Source: Megamonas funiformis
GTDB lineage: Bacteria; Bacillota; Negativicutes; Selenomonadales; Selenomonadaceae
Length of the DNA: 64,000 bases
Reading direction: 5' to 3'
Assembly: GCF_010669225.1 (NCBI RefSeq)
Contig: NZ_CP048627.1
Coordinates: 310,001 to 374,000 of the forward strand
A program made the position numbers and the translations under genes. Below the pieces are notes generated by a model that saw only the letters and a program-made list of their open reading frames with translations, was not told the DNA's origin and did no database searches. Shown in pieces: positions 54,801 through 60,777 of the stretch (position 1 is the stretch's first letter; each line of letters starts with the position of its first letter).

Positions 54801-55268
54801 GTGAAGATTTTAGCTAGACAATTAACTGTAGATATGTACGATTGTAAAAATAAAGATTTAAGTAATTATGAAGATTTGCGTGAGTCCTTGGACATGGCGA
54901 TGAATATGGCTGGATATACACCGATAGAAGTTCGTGCTCAACTATGGAATGAAGAACAAGCTATTGTATTTATTTTACTTCAAGAAGGTCATGCAGTAGT
55001 GCGTACGTATCCAAAATTAAAATATGTTGCTAGCGATGTATTTATTTGCCAAGAAGATGGTAAACCTGAAAAAGCAATTAAGGCTTTGAAAAAATTAATG
55101 AAGCCAGAAAAAATAAGAATGACTTATTTAAAACGTGGCGATTTTGGTACGGTCAAAGATGTTAAACCACGTATAAAAATTCGTATTGCACCACTTAGAC
55201 CACTTCGCAGTATAAAAAATAAAGGTGCTAAAGTTATTAAAACTGTAGCACGCAGAATAAAATTATAA
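54801..55268 (+). CDS. AdoMet-decarboxylase-like protein lacking the pyruvoyl serine
   Basis: 155 aa. The first 115 residues align with bacterial SpeH/SpeD AdoMet decarboxylase: LTVDMYDCKNKDL, then QEGHAVVRTYPKLKYVASDVFIC where active enzymes have ESHxSxHTWPExxYxxxDxFxC. The serine that self-cleaves to the pyruvoyl cofactor is Gly63 and the processing His68 is Arg68; Cys83 remains. Autoprocessing is therefore impossible by the known mechanism. A lysine/arginine-rich tail (about 118-155, PRIKIRIAPLRPLRSIKNK) is extra. Starts with GTG after GGGAGAGAAGCG. No spermidine-synthase gene is adjacent. Possibly a regulator or nucleic-acid-binding derivative of the fold. Confidence 0.85.
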   Translation: MKILARQLTVDMYDCKNKDLSNYEDLRESLDMAMNMAGYTPIEVRAQLWNEEQAIVFILLQEGHAVVRTYPKLKYVASDVFICQEDGKPEKAIKALKKLMKPEKIRMTYLKRGDFGTVKDVKPRIKIRIAPLRPLRSIKNKGAKVIKTVARRIKL

Positions 55269-55277
55269 TTTATGAAA

Positions 55278-56480
55278 TTAAAAATCAGAAAATACATGTA
55301 AGGTTCTATTTAAAATGCCGTGAATATAGGCAATAGTAGTACCGTAATTGCTCATGGGTATATTTTGCTCATGAGCTTTTTTTAATCTTGATTGCATTTC
55401 CGCTTGATTGAGCATACAGCCACCGCAGTGAATGATTAATTTATATTTAGATAAATCATCAGGAAATTCTGTGCCAGAGGTAAAAATAAATTCTGGGTTG
55501 GCTTTAGTATAATTTTTTATCCAATTAGGTAATTTCACAGTGCCGATATCATCACATTGGCGGTGATGTGTACAGCCTTCAGCAATTAAAATTTTATCAT
55601 CATCTTTGATAGTATCTAAGACTTTAACAGCATTTACTTGTCGCTTTAAATCTCCTTTATAGCGGGAAAAGAGAATTGAAAAAGAAGTTAATTCTATATC
55701 TTGAGGAACGATTTTATTTACTTTGCCAAAAACTTGGCTGTCCGTGATGATGAGTTTTGGTTTAGTTTTTAGATTGGCTAAAGTATTTTCTAAATTATCA
55801 TCTTGAGTCATGATGGCAGTAGCACCAATATCGAGCAATTCGCGAATTACTTGTTGTTGAGGTAAAATAAGTCGCCCTTTAGGAGCTGCTTTATCAATAG
55901 GAATTACCAAAATTACAGTATCTTTGGGATTTACGATATCTTTTAAGATAAATTTTTCTTGTTTAGTTTTGGCTACTTGTACAAGTTTAGATTTTAATTC
56001 TTCAATACCTGTTTTTTCTTTGGCACTGATATATACATATTGTTTAATATTTTCATTTTTAGGTTTGAAATCAGGCACTAAATCGACTTTATTATAAGCT
56101 ACGATATAGGGAATGTTTTTATCAGTGATTAATTTTAAAATATCTCGGTCAAAATCGGTAAAATCTAAAGTAGCGTCAATGACTAAAATAGCGATATCAG
56201 TTTTATTTAAAATTTGTTTAGTTTTTTCTATACGCAATTTGCCAAGTTCGCCAATATCGTCAAGACCAGCTGTATCAATGATATTTACAGGACCAAGTGG
56301 TAAAAGTTCCATGGCTTTATGCACTGGGTCTGTTGTCGTTCCTTTGATTGGAGAAACTACAGCGATATTTTGATTAGTTAAGGCATTCATAATGCTAGAT
56401 TTACCAGCATTACGAATACCAAAAAAAGCGATATGGGTGCGATTGGCAAATGGAGTTTGATTTAAATCCATAATATACAC
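55278..56480 (-). CDS. hydF: [FeFe]-hydrogenase maturation GTPase HydF
   Basis: 400 aa. GTPase domain (about 10-170: P-loop GIRNAGKSSIMNAL, GTTTDPV, DTAGLDD, YNKVDLV), dimerisation domain, and C-terminal Fe-S scaffold with EGCTHHRQCDD and IHCGGCMLN. Carries the [2Fe] precursor to HydA. Last gene of the hyd operon, 11 bases after hydG; its stop is 9 bases from the convergent AdoMetDC-like gene with no hairpin between. Confidence 0.96.
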   Translation of the reverse strand: MYIMDLNQTPFANRTHIAFFGIRNAGKSSIMNALTNQNIAVVSPIKGTTTDPVHKAMELLPLGPVNIIDTAGLDDIGELGKLRIEKTKQILNKTDIAILVIDATLDFTDFDRDILKLITDKNIPYIVAYNKVDLVPDFKPKNENIKQYVYISAKEKTGIEELKSKLVQVAKTKQEKFILKDIVNPKDTVILVIPIDKAAPKGRLILPQQQVIRELLDIGATAIMTQDDNLENTLANLKTKPKLIITDSQVFGKVNKIVPQDIELTSFSILFSRYKGDLKRQVNAVKVLDTIKDDDKILIAEGCTHHRQCDDIGTVKLPNWIKNYTKANPEFIFTSGTEFPDDLSKYKLIIHCGGCMLNQAEMQSRLKKAHEQNIPMSNYGTTIAYIHGILNRTLHVFSDF

Positions 56481-56491
56481 CTTATTTTTTA

Positions 56492-57919
56492 TTAAAATCT
56501 GAAATCACGTTGACCTTCAGCGATTAAATGAAGTTGTTTAGTTACGATATCGCGAACTTTATCGCTTTTAATTTGCGCTAATTGTTCATGAATTAATTTA
56601 TAGCCTACTTGTTTTGTATCATCACTAGCATAATCGCAAAGATATTCTTTAAGTGTCATTAAAGCGTTAGGTAAACAGCAATTGGAGATTTGACCACTTT
56701 TGCATAAGCTCATAAATCTATCTCCTGTTCTACCTTCGCGATAGCAAGCTGTACAGAAGCTAGGTACAAAACCTAATTTCATAAGCCAATTTACGACTTC
56801 ATCTAAGGAGCGATTATCGCTTACATCAAATTGGCTGGAATTTTCTTCGGGAGCTTCTTTTTCGGCATAGCCACCAACGCTAGTGCGAGAGCCACCACTG
56901 ATTTGAGAGATACCAAGTTGCAATACTTTTTCACGACAAGCTTGGCTTTCACGAGTGGAAACAATCATGCCAGTATAAGGAACAGCAATGCGGATACAAG
57001 CTACGATTTTGGCAAAAGTATCATCATCAATACCATTATTAAAAGTAGATGGATCGATATCATCAGCACGACGGATACGAGGAACGCTGATAGTATGAGG
57101 ACCTACGCCAAAGCGTGCTTCGAGATGTTCTGCGTGCATGAGTAGACCTGCAAATTCATAGCGATATTTTTCTAAGCCAAATAATACGCCACAGCCAACA
57201 TCATCAATGCCACCTTCCATAGCTCTATCCATAGCTTCTGTATGATAAGCATAATTATGCTTTGGCCCTGTTGGGTGAAGTTGTTCATAGCTTTCTTTAT
57301 GGTAAGTTTCTTGGAATAAAATATAAGTGCCGATACCTGCTTCTTTTAATTTGCGATAATTTTCAACAGTTGTAGCAGCAATATTGACATTGACACGGCG
57401 AATAGCACCATTTTTATGTTTTATGCTATAAATAGTTTTGATGCTTTCAAGTACATATTCGATAGGATTATTTACTGGGTCTTCGCCTGTTTCTAAAGCA
57501 AGGCGTTTGTGTCCCATATCTTGAAGGGCGATAACTTCGCGTTTGATATCTTCTTGAGTTAATTTTTTTCTAGCAATATGTTTATTTTTAGCATGATAAG
57601 GGCAATATACACATCCATTAACACAGTAATTAGAAAGATAAAGTGGCGCGAATAGAACAATTCTATCGCCATAAAAATCATCTTTAATTTTTTTTGCTAG
57701 AGCGAAAATTTCTTTATTGAGTTCAGGAATATCACAAGCTAAAAGCACAGAAGCTTCACGGTGAGAAAGACCTTTTTCAAGTTTTGCTTTAGCTAAAATT
57801 TCAGTGATTAAAGCTTTATCATGTTTATGTTCATCAGCATAAGCAAGAGTAGATAAAATTTCTTCATGATTGATAAATTCTTCTGCTTTAGAGGATTTTG
57901 GATTGTACAAATCTATCAA
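56492..57919 (-). CDS. hydG: [FeFe]-hydrogenase maturation radical SAM protein HydG
   Basis: 475 aa. Lyses tyrosine to make CO and cyanide for the H-cluster. Radical-SAM cysteines Cys99-x3-Cys103-x2-Cys106 (YCVNGCVYC), ThiH-like TIM barrel, and the HydG-specific C-terminal cluster motif CTACYREGRTGDRFMSLCKSG. Between hydE (22 bases) and hydF. Confidence 0.97.
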   Translation of the reverse strand: MIDLYNPKSSKAEEFINHEEILSTLAYADEHKHDKALITEILAKAKLEKGLSHREASVLLACDIPELNKEIFALAKKIKDDFYGDRIVLFAPLYLSNYCVNGCVYCPYHAKNKHIARKKLTQEDIKREVIALQDMGHKRLALETGEDPVNNPIEYVLESIKTIYSIKHKNGAIRRVNVNIAATTVENYRKLKEAGIGTYILFQETYHKESYEQLHPTGPKHNYAYHTEAMDRAMEGGIDDVGCGVLFGLEKYRYEFAGLLMHAEHLEARFGVGPHTISVPRIRRADDIDPSTFNNGIDDDTFAKIVACIRIAVPYTGMIVSTRESQACREKVLQLGISQISGGSRTSVGGYAEKEAPEENSSQFDVSDNRSLDEVVNWLMKLGFVPSFCTACYREGRTGDRFMSLCKSGQISNCCLPNALMTLKEYLCDYASDDTKQVGYKLIHEQLAQIKSDKVRDIVTKQLHLIAEGQRDFRF

Positions 57920-57941
57920 CTTCTTTCTTTAGAAATATATA

Positions 57942-59015
57942 TTAAGACATTAAGCTATCTCCTCTACTAGAGGTTACATGATAGCCATGTTCTTGCAAGG
58001 CATTTGTTAATTTTATGATACCTTCTAAAGATTCGCCACCTGTTATTTTTTTATTATTATATAAAGTATAAAGTGAACGAATATTTAAAGGTGAGATATT
58101 AGGCATGATGACATTAGCGCCAGCTTCAAGACCTTTTATAGTTCCATTCGGAGCTAATGTGGCAAGTGCAGTTGTTGCTGGCAATAAAACTTTAGGCAGT
58201 AATAAACGAATTATAGCCAAGATGACTAAAGTCAAATCAACGCTACCTGCCGTTTTATCTTTAAACGGTGTTTGTTCATGCGGAATAAAAGGGCCAGTGC
58301 CTATCATATGAGGTTGAAAATCACTTAAAAATTCTAAGTCAGTCAATAAATCAGCTAAAGTTTGATATGGCGAGCCAATCATCATACCAGCTCCCACTTG
58401 ATAGCCAATATCTTTTAAATTTTTTAGGCAGTTTAAGCGATTATTTAAATCCATTTTTGCTGGGTGAAGTTTTTGATAATGTGAAATATTAGCTGTTTCA
58501 TGACGAAGCAAATATCTATCTGCTCCAGCGTCAAAATATTTTTGATAGCTTGCTCTTGTCTTTTCACCGATGGATAAAGTGATAGCACATTCGGGATATT
58601 TATTTTTTATTTCTTTAATTATTTGTATCATTTTATCATCAGAAAAATACATATCTTCGCCTCCTTGTAAGACAAAGGTGCGAAGATTATTTTTATAGCC
58701 TATTTCACAAGATAATAATATTTCTTCTAAAGATAGGCGATAGCGAGTAGCTTTATGATTAGAACAGCGAATACCGCAATAATAGCAATCATTTTTGCAG
58801 TAATTGGTAAATTCAATAAGACCGCGCAAAAAGACATTATGTCCGTATGATTTTTCACGAACAAAGCGAGCCGCTGCAAATAGATATTTGCTAAGCGGCC
58901 CTGCATAGGCTTCTTGAGATAATTCATCAAGAAGTTTTTTTATTTTTGATTTATTAAATTGGGGATTGATGACTAAATCATCAATAATGTTTAATGAATT
59001 TAATTTAGTTTCCAT
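57942..59015 (-). CDS. hydE: [FeFe]-hydrogenase maturation radical SAM protein HydE
   Basis: 357 aa. Radical-SAM motif Cys73-x3-Cys77-x2-Cys80 (YCKNDCYYC) followed by the BioB-like barrel (TFVLQGGEDMYFS, GAGMMIGSPYQT). Builds the dithiolate-bridged diiron precursor. 19 bases after hydA. Confidence 0.96.
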   Translation of the reverse strand: METKLNSLNIIDDLVINPQFNKSKIKKLLDELSQEAYAGPLSKYLFAAARFVREKSYGHNVFLRGLIEFTNYCKNDCYYCGIRCSNHKATRYRLSLEEILLSCEIGYKNNLRTFVLQGGEDMYFSDDKMIQIIKEIKNKYPECAITLSIGEKTRASYQKYFDAGADRYLLRHETANISHYQKLHPAKMDLNNRLNCLKNLKDIGYQVGAGMMIGSPYQTLADLLTDLEFLSDFQPHMIGTGPFIPHEQTPFKDKTAGSVDLTLVILAIIRLLLPKVLLPATTALATLAPNGTIKGLEAGANVIMPNISPLNIRSLYTLYNNKKITGGESLEGIIKLTNALQEHGYHVTSSRGDSLMS

Positions 59016-59034
59016 AATGAATTATTTCAATAAA

Positions 59035-60777
59035 TTATTTTTCAAAATCAAATTGTTTTTTACGTGCTTGGTAATGAGTATGCAATAATTTATGAGCAAT
59101 TTCACTACCTGGTTTTTCAAGAAAATCTTTATAGAGTTGTTTTAAATATGGATTTTCATGAGATTTACGATATTTAGTATTTTTATCTATTTGATAGATG
59201 GATTCCATACGTTTTTTATTTACTTCCATAGTAGTGCCTATTGGTTGACCACCGCCACCTAAGCAACCACCTGGGCAAGCCATTACTTCAATGAAATCAT
59301 ATTTACATTCGCCAGCACGCAATTTATCCATGAGGATTTTAGCATTATTTAAAGTATGAGCTACAGCGATGTTGATAGTTTTATCGCCAATATTGATTTG
59401 AGCTTCTTTGATACCATCAAAACCGCGAACAGGAGTGTATTCAACATTTTTCATTTCTTCTCCTGTGAGCCATTCGTAAGTAGTACGAAGTGCAGCTTCC
59501 ATAACGCCACCAGTAGCACCAAAGATAGCAGCAGCACCTGTAGCAGTACCCATAGGATTATCAAATTCACTTTCAGGAAGATTTTCAAAATCAATACCGA
59601 TATATTTAATGAGTTTGATTAATTCACGAGTTGTCAATACTGCGTCAGTATCAGGACGACCATCATGAGCCATTTCAGGACGAGTGATTTCATATTTTTT
59701 AGCGATACATGGCATGATTGCTACAGTGAAAATATTTTTAGGGTCGAGATTTTCTTGTTTTGCATAATGTGTTTTAGTGATAGCGGAGAAAATCTGCATA
59801 GGAGATTTTGTAGTAGATAAATGGTCTAAAAGGTCAGGATAATGTTTTTCCATATAATTTACCCAACCAGGACAGCAAGAAGTAGCCATTGGCATTTTTT
59901 TGCCAGATTTTATGCGTTCGATTAATTCATTAGCTTCTTCAGTGATAGTGAGGTCAGCACCGTAGTTTGTATCAAATACTTTATCAAAGCCAATCATGCG
60001 AAGTGCAGTAACCATTTTTTTAGTTACGATAGAGCCTTTTGGCATACCGAATTCATCGCCTAAAGCTATACGCACACTTGGAGCTGTTTGAACGATAACA
60101 GTTTTATTAGGGTCGAAGATGGCATCAAGAACACGGTCAGTATCATCTTTTTCTACTAATGCACCTACAGGGCAAGCAAGACTACATTGTCCGCAAAGCA
60201 CACATTTTGTATTATCAAATTCAGCATCAAATGGAGTTGTTACATGAATATTTGTACTGCGTCCAGCAAAACCTAAAACTTCAATACCTTGAATTTCTTT
60301 ACAAGCACGGATACAACGACCGCATTTAACGCATTTTTCAGGGTCATGTACTAAGCTTGGATTAGCACCACGTTTTTCGATATGTTGACCAACATGAGGA
60401 ATGTTTGGACGAAGTACATTGAAACGGCTACAGAGTTGTTGAAGCACACAGTTGCCATTACGAGGACAAGTCAAGCAATTTTCTTCATGGTCAGCCATGA
60501 TTAATTGCAAAATACCACGTTGAGTATCGCGTACAACTTTTGTATCAGTGAATACTTCCATACCTTCCCAACATTCAGTAGAGCAAGCTGCAAGTAAACG
60601 GCGTTGACCGACAACTTCTACAGAGCAGATACGGCAACGTGCTTTGATGCGTTGATCAGGATGATAACATAAATGGGGAATATCTATATGAAGCATTTGA
60701 GCTGCTTGTAAAATTTTAGTGCCTTTTTTTACACTTATAGGCATATTATTTATTTTAAGATTAATTAACTCTTCCAT
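59035..60777 (-). CDS. hydA: [FeFe]-hydrogenase catalytic subunit HydA
   Basis: 580 aa, cytoplasmic. N-terminal [2Fe-2S] (Cys37, 48, 51, 65), His-Cys3 [4Fe-4S] (HEENCLTCPRNGNC), two ferredoxin-type [4Fe-4S] (CVKCGRC, CVLCGQC), then the H-cluster domain with all three motifs: L1 TSCCPGW (299-305), L2 MPCIAKKYE (355-363) and L3 EVMACPGGCLGGGGQP (497-512). Encoded with NuoE- and NuoF-like subunits, so it exchanges electrons with NAD(H). It lacks the extra C-terminal [2Fe-2S] domain present in the longer Thermotoga HydA. AGGAGG precedes the ATG. Confidence 0.96.
   Translation of the reverse strand: MEELINLKINNMPISVKKGTKILQAAQMLHIDIPHLCYHPDQRIKARCRICSVEVVGQRRLLAACSTECWEGMEVFTDTKVVRDTQRGILQLIMADHEENCLTCPRNGNCVLQQLCSRFNVLRPNIPHVGQHIEKRGANPSLVHDPEKCVKCGRCIRACKEIQGIEVLGFAGRSTNIHVTTPFDAEFDNTKCVLCGQCSLACPVGALVEKDDTDRVLDAIFDPNKTVIVQTAPSVRIALGDEFGMPKGSIVTKKMVTALRMIGFDKVFDTNYGADLTITEEANELIERIKSGKKMPMATSCCPGWVNYMEKHYPDLLDHLSTTKSPMQIFSAITKTHYAKQENLDPKNIFTVAIMPCIAKKYEITRPEMAHDGRPDTDAVLTTRELIKLIKYIGIDFENLPESEFDNPMGTATGAAAIFGATGGVMEAALRTTYEWLTGEEMKNVEYTPVRGFDGIKEAQINIGDKTINIAVAHTLNNAKILMDKLRAGECKYDFIEVMACPGGCLGGGGQPIGTTMEVNKKRMESIYQIDKNTKYRKSHENPYLKQLYKDFLEKPGSEIAHKLLHTHYQARKKQFDFEK

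Follow-up and report, generated by a model that had tools for sequence, protein, structure and literature searches.

A conserved AdoMet decarboxylase homologue with a basic tail in Megamonas funiformis is very probably a pseudoenzyme of the Negativicutes

The stretch of Megamonas funiformis DNA analysed here (64,000 nucleotides of contig NZ_CP048627.1, called the window below) carries on its plus strand, at 54801..55268, a gene whose product resembles S-adenosylmethionine decarboxylase (AdoMetDC) and has no serine at the position from which that enzyme forms its pyruvoyl group. Is this an enzyme, the relic of one, or an old enzyme fold given a new use? The gene, taken from the list of open reading frames, begins with GTG, has a purine-rich stretch close upstream of this start, and encodes 155 amino acids. 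The protein scores 76.8 bits against the Pfam profile AdoMet_dc (PF02675, cut-off 25) and 78.1 bits against the NCBIfam profile TIGR03330, barely above the curated cut-off of 75.65, so an automatic pipeline would call it adenosylmethionine decarboxylase.

The alpha/beta core of AdoMetDC occupies residues 1-116 (54801..55148, plus strand), matching residues 1-117 of the Thermotoga maritima enzyme in the profile comparison, and AlphaFold models it with pLDDT mostly above 90. Foldseek places the protein on the T. maritima structure 1tlu (E 6.7e-11, TM 0.88 on the target) and also matches 1tmi, the S63A mutant that does not process itself. Beyond about residue 117 the model is of low confidence and shows a strand (124-129) followed by a helix (142-154); modelling a Ser63-type homologue leads to the same result. 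Placed in register with T. maritima AdoMetDC, codon 63 (GGT, 54987..54989, plus strand) encodes glycine in place of the pyruvoyl-forming serine, codon 68 (CGT, 55002..55004, plus strand) encodes arginine in place of the processing histidine, and codon 83 (TGC, 55047..55049, plus strand) keeps the cysteine. The substrate-loop region, residues 48-55 (54942..54965, plus strand), reads LWNEEQAI, which according to the column table and the loop tally replaces the canonical F49-x-P51-x-G53-x-S55. The protein is therefore like class 1b SpeD/SpeH (T. maritima 1tlu/1vr7 and 1tmi; TIGR03330, PF02675) in the fold and length of its core, in His64, Asp79 and Cys83, and in an RG at the end of the core, but differs by Ser63 to Gly, His68 to Arg, Glu11 to Asp, the lost loop and a basic tail of about 38 residues. 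The original prediction, made from the letters of the DNA, had described just this fold with S63G, H68R, Cys83 and a basic tail; the profiles, the register and a tail with 14 Lys/Arg confirm it, and structure prediction gives a confident AdoMetDC core with a low-confidence tail. Known self-processing is impossible with Gly63 in place of Ser63, as was also predicted. Judged by these residues, the window protein is very probably a pseudoenzyme.

The C-terminal motif and basic tail, residues 107-155 (55119..55265, plus strand), are specific to the class and were followed through 48 class-wide sequences. In the window protein the tail proper (about residues 117-155) holds, besides the 14 Lys/Arg, one Asp, giving a net charge of +13. 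Solved AdoMetDCs, whose match to the profile stops at residue 117-118, have nothing that corresponds to it, and a relationship to any other solved protein was rejected, the best match (E 0.54) not being credible. The best-kept stretch of the family straddles the boundary between core and tail, with the motif T-x-(L/I)-K-R-G-D-F-G-x-x-K-D-(M/V)-K-P. In the 48 sequences D11, C15, R112 and P123 are invariant, and Y13, H64, H68, D79, T108, G113 and D120 are found in at least 90%. Ser63-type proteins with Cys83 have tails with a median net charge of +7, Gly63-type proteins +10 and the rest +11; for the nine-residue C-terminal ends of canonical proteins the value is about 0.

We placed these proteins on trees built from the core alone with column 63 omitted (116 columns, many open forks). 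The tailed proteins group together in a single clade (support 100/99), and one change on the tree accounts for the tail, which was seen in Negativicutes only. By this reconstruction the tail was gained once, in the ancestor of the Negativicutes, before Ser63 was lost. The Lys/Arg-rich extension that the prediction regarded as an addition is thus real and conserved, but it is a single ancestral gain at the level of the class, older than the loss of Ser63, and was not added in this strain.

Of the 153 distinct tailed proteins, 112 have glycine at position 63 and 31 have serine; the other 10 have A, T, C, F or H. The full set of S63, H68 and C83 is present in 21 of the 153; going by their residues, these proteins may still be enzymes. 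All three residues are kept in 30/30 untailed homologues (29 from the phylum plus that of T. maritima). Every distinct row of family f1, to which the window protein belongs (57 rows), and every row named as Selenomonadaceae (20 rows) has Gly63, and the possibility raised with the prediction, that only this strain carries the substitutions, is ruled out by this family-wide occurrence. The two substitutions differ in age and reach: both are present as predicted, Gly63 being general in the family, but Arg68 is a late change at the level of the genus. His68 is kept in about 95% of Gly63 proteins, and Arg68 was found only in Megamonas (the window protein and its congener) and in one divergent homologue (L098, family f13), making it essentially genus-specific. 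The FxPxG loop is absent in 103 of the 112 Gly63 proteins and present in 9, several of which sit near S63/C83 proteins on the tree; among the S63/C83 proteins themselves, 18 of 21 keep it. The pattern looks as if Ser63 had been lost first and the pocket had eroded later. Glu11 is replaced by Asp in practically all tailed proteins, those of the Ser63 type included, which suggests that even the latter may differ from the canonical enzyme.

The catalytic site has died along different routes. Ser63 was replaced by glycine with Cys83 kept (family f1, most of f2, and others); Cys83 was lost with Ser63 kept (in f25, f22, f6 and f34); or Ser63 was replaced by A, T, C or F together with C83F (in f32, f33 and f35). 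In five proteins from f25, f22 and f6 (L121, L124, L127, L122 and L096) Ser63 and His68 are kept, and Cys83 is replaced by R, L, Y, S or F. Such proteins are possible intermediates that might cleave themselves but not turn over substrate. Mapping residue 63 on the tree, with its one tailed clade, gives 6-8 changes by parsimony. A single clade of all proteins without Ser63 is rejected (p 4e-55); a single clade of the Gly63 proteins alone is not rejected (p 0.23). Several losses of Ser63 are likely, and we make no claim about the number of Ser-to-Gly events. Most tailed proteins retain His64, His68 and Cys83, so the old site may still carry out some chemistry or bind a ligand.

A gene that has lost its catalytic residues might simply be decaying. 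Between the window gene and that of its congener omega is 0.133 (core 0.147, tail 0.070), and ten other usable pairs give 0.009-0.180; these are rough values, obtained by NG86 with dS near or above 1 in several pairs. The tail has a lower omega than the core in 11/11 usable pairs. The window gene is under purifying selection and is not decaying. The lost catalytic residues are what a decaying relic would show, but with omega at 0.01-0.18 in eleven pairs, no internal stop among the matches listed and 97% presence across the class, we give this reading a negligible probability; omega and distribution together rule out decay. The prediction had itself named a sign of decay, a functional relative at the same locus. 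Intact S63/H68/C83 orthologues are indeed found at a ctsR-linked locus in other families, yet the gene is under purifying selection. With Gly63 family-wide and selection acting, the proposal of a conserved, repurposed pseudoenzyme stands.

Homologues of the tailed protein were found in 357 of 380 Negativicutes genomes and in 228 of the 234 good ones (97%). Named relatives come from Propionispira, Megamonas, Pectinatus, Selenomonas, Mitsuokella, Anaerovibrio, Schwartzia, Propionispora, Pelosinus and Phascolarctobacterium. A scan of 84,980 species placed 73/73 confirmed loci in Negativicutes or in records labelled only Bacillota or Selenomonadales; it used the narrow alignment A2, the alignment A1 being too diverse, and so favours near relatives. 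No relatives were found in viral contigs, and the best named viral structure matches are annotated phage AdoMetDCs; phage origin or spread was rejected on these grounds.

In the window the gene stands alone among unrelated genes, with lysS 3.5 kb away. Directly downstream, at 55278-60777, lies a run of minus-strand genes that read as those for a maturation GTPase of [FeFe]-hydrogenase, for two radical-SAM proteins resembling HydG/HydE and for an iron hydrogenase that has ferredoxin domains. Elsewhere in the class the tailed gene lies near ctsR-mcsA-mcsB-clpC (neighbour names read from size and order), divergent from it and separated by zero to few genes. This locus is held by Sporomusa-type genomes with Ser63 or Gly63, by Propionispira and Pelosinus with Gly63, and by one genome with Phe63 (G363). 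The common locus suggests that the Ser- and Gly-type genes are most likely one gene by descent. In many Selenomonadaceae the next gene upstream, in the same orientation, is lgt (identified by Pfam). A conserved operon partner was rejected, as no gene accompanies the tailed one throughout the class; the linkages, to lgt, ctsR-mcsA-mcsB-clpC, an NMO/FabK-like gene and rRNA operons, are all local. The tailed gene is often near an rRNA operon (as at L215, L217, L219, L220 and L231), and because of this closeness assemblies frequently break beside it. The proximity explains the contig ends and is not counted as a sign of function.

Is the protein tied to spermidine synthesis? The prediction that no spermidine synthase is nearby holds: there is none within the 64-kb window, and the only SpeE match of the genome lies at C1:752640-753452. 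Near it, at C1:750343-751131, is an intact class 1a (E. coli-type, TIGR03331) SpeD. This protein belongs to the same superfamily as the tailed one, but is the product of another gene, with 262 amino acids and an intact KSHITVHTYPE. The window gene is thus a second AdoMetDC-family gene, far from the spermidine genes. Of the 234 good Negativicutes genomes, 198 have SpeE, 154 class 1a SpeD and 228 the tailed protein. Some of them, for example G172, G173, G182 and G184, have neither SpeE nor class 1a SpeD, and the tailed protein is their only PF02675 match. Its retention thus does not depend on spermidine synthesis. Three AdoMetDC-family genes were seen in some Sporomusa-type genomes, one tailed, one class 1a and one canonical untailed class 1b (for example L218 in G308, at C1:1547679-1548017, and L141 in G314). 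The Veillonella transcript Vpar_0438, named SAM decarboxylase (PMC6529473), could be either the tailed or the class 1a gene and was left out of the argument.

One observation runs against the pseudoenzyme reading. Several Selenomonas-group genomes have SpeE above the curated cut-off, and their Gly63 protein is the only AdoMetDC-family member. The source of decarboxylated AdoMet in these SpeE-bearing genomes without a Ser63 SpeD is unexplained, and they are the best argument for testing the protein. They would suit an active decarboxylase that works by an unusual route, at least where it is the sole AdoMetDC-family protein, as would the fact that H64, H68 and C83 are mostly kept. We consider such an enzyme very improbable: no pyruvoyl group formed from glycine is known, the substrate loop is lost, and SpeE has as neighbours a decarboxylase of basic amino acids and a carboxyspermidine-dehydrogenase-like gene, which would be another route to spermidine. 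SpeE operons of this kind, in genomes without class 1a SpeD, were seen at L273 (Selenomonas-group genome G146) and L271 (G116), where, read by sequence, the decarboxylase is of the aminotransferase-fold type that acts on basic amino acids and the other partner resembles carboxyspermidine dehydrogenase.

Three non-catalytic roles have to be weighed against binding of RNA or the ribosome, and docking on the membrane is the main alternative. Here the helix of the basic tail would attach the pseudoenzyme to the inner membrane, perhaps in connection with polyamine-modified peptidoglycan. The predicted C-terminal helix (residues 142-154), the co-oriented lgt gene that immediately precedes the tailed gene in many Selenomonadaceae, and the class restriction speak for it, the last because Negativicutes peptidoglycan carries cadaverine or putrescine (PMC10628300). 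However, the confidence of the helix is low, the lgt linkage is limited to part of one family, and the hydrophobic moment of the tail exceeds that of shuffled tails (5% level) in only 4 of 18 proteins, for which reason an amphipathic membrane helix was dropped as a firm claim. We regard docking on the membrane as unlikely, though it has to be taken seriously. A ligand sensor, in which a ligand bound by the core (AdoMet, decarboxylated AdoMet or a polyamine) would send a signal through the tail to a nucleic acid or protein, would agree with the nearly invariant H64, D79, C15 and D11, with the retained fold of the T. maritima S63A mutant (1tmi), and with the binding of putrescine by the trypanosome prozyme. 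The absence of FxPxG in 103/112 Gly63 proteins argues against AdoMet as the ligand, and this role seems rather improbable.

Less likely than membrane docking is a prozyme-like activator, a dead homologue that pairs with class 1a SpeD and raises its activity or controls its level. To our knowledge the E. coli class 1a enzyme needs no partner, and the tailed protein is kept where class 1a SpeD is absent, for example in Selenomonas ruminantium-group genomes as well as in the four genomes named above. Although the genome of the window has both proteins and trypanosomes offer a precedent, in which a dead AdoMetDC paralogue activates the enzyme and binds putrescine (PMC5201418), we find such an activator distinctly improbable.

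Our preferred reading is that an ancient class 1b AdoMetDC has become a pseudoenzyme whose folded core carries a conserved basic tail that binds a polyanion, probably RNA; for this statement as a whole we estimate a probability of about 0.5. An old enzyme fold was probably given a new use. In the ancestor of the Negativicutes forms, a class 1b AdoMetDC would have gained the basic C-terminal extension and the change of Glu11 to Asp. Later, pyruvoyl chemistry would have been lost in most lineages through Ser63 changing to Gly, Ala, Thr, Cys, Phe or His, through loss of Cys83, or both; the substrate loop would have worn away, with selection continuing to act on fold and tail. The protein would then act without catalysis, its core displaying Lys/Arg-rich tails to a polyanion, with RNA the likeliest candidate (rRNA or ribosomes, for instance), and a ligand in the old pocket would possibly influence binding by the tail. 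Related AdoMetDC enzymes are dimeric, and the core may display its tails as a dimer. We read the protein as a binding protein because it combines a folded core and a conserved, strongly basic tail with no conserved operon and no dependence on spermidine genes. RNA or the ribosome is suggested by the lack of a signal sequence in the reading frame and by a tail rich in Lys/Arg with hardly any acidic residue. Among the partners that the prediction suggested for the tail (RNA, DNA or membrane), RNA is a first guess, held with appreciably less than even confidence.

The closest precedent is the AdoMetDC prozyme of trypanosomatids, the one described dead AdoMetDC that we found. Both are catalytically dead AdoMetDC homologues under selection, and the window protein shares the prozyme-type feature of an AdoMetDC homologue without the pyruvoyl residue. 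The prozyme, however, is a eukaryotic paralogue that acts through an active partner, whereas the tailed proteins form a single bacterial clade with a basic tail and occur in many genomes without active SpeD. The neofunctionalised SpeD homologues SpeDC and SpeDA, which are pyruvoyl-dependent ornithine or arginine decarboxylases (PMC10407285), are similar in that they occur beside a second SpeD or without SpeE, but they form their pyruvoyl group from an internal serine; their processing set S63/H68/C83 is absent from the window protein, which has G63 and R68. The text of that paper mentions neither Negativicutes nor glycine, inactive forms or pseudoenzymes, with the exception of one Victivallis fusion domain that has lost its active-site residues. 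We found no report of a bacterial dead SpeD or of the tailed Negativicutes clade in the open-access literature, which does not prove absence. The window protein belongs to this tailed SpeH clade, defined here by the C-terminal motif, the basic tail and a single origin.

Annotations of the tailed gene as SpeD or SpeH in Negativicutes, many of them commensals, are probably wrong, and metabolic models or polyamine surveys that count it as an AdoMet decarboxylase would be misled. What appear to be intermediates survive in one orthologous gene: some tailed proteins have all catalytic residues, others differ at Ser63 alone or at Cys83 alone, and in others the entire substrate site has eroded. The route from enzyme to pseudoenzyme is thereby open to direct testing. 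Found in 97% of good genomes of the class, more than its parent pathway, the gene is probably important there. At a little under even odds, its product may be a core component of the class, in which one gain of a tail made a non-catalytic binder of RNA, ribosomes or envelope out of an AdoMetDC fold, and the pyruvoyl site then died repeatedly and independently in the descendants.
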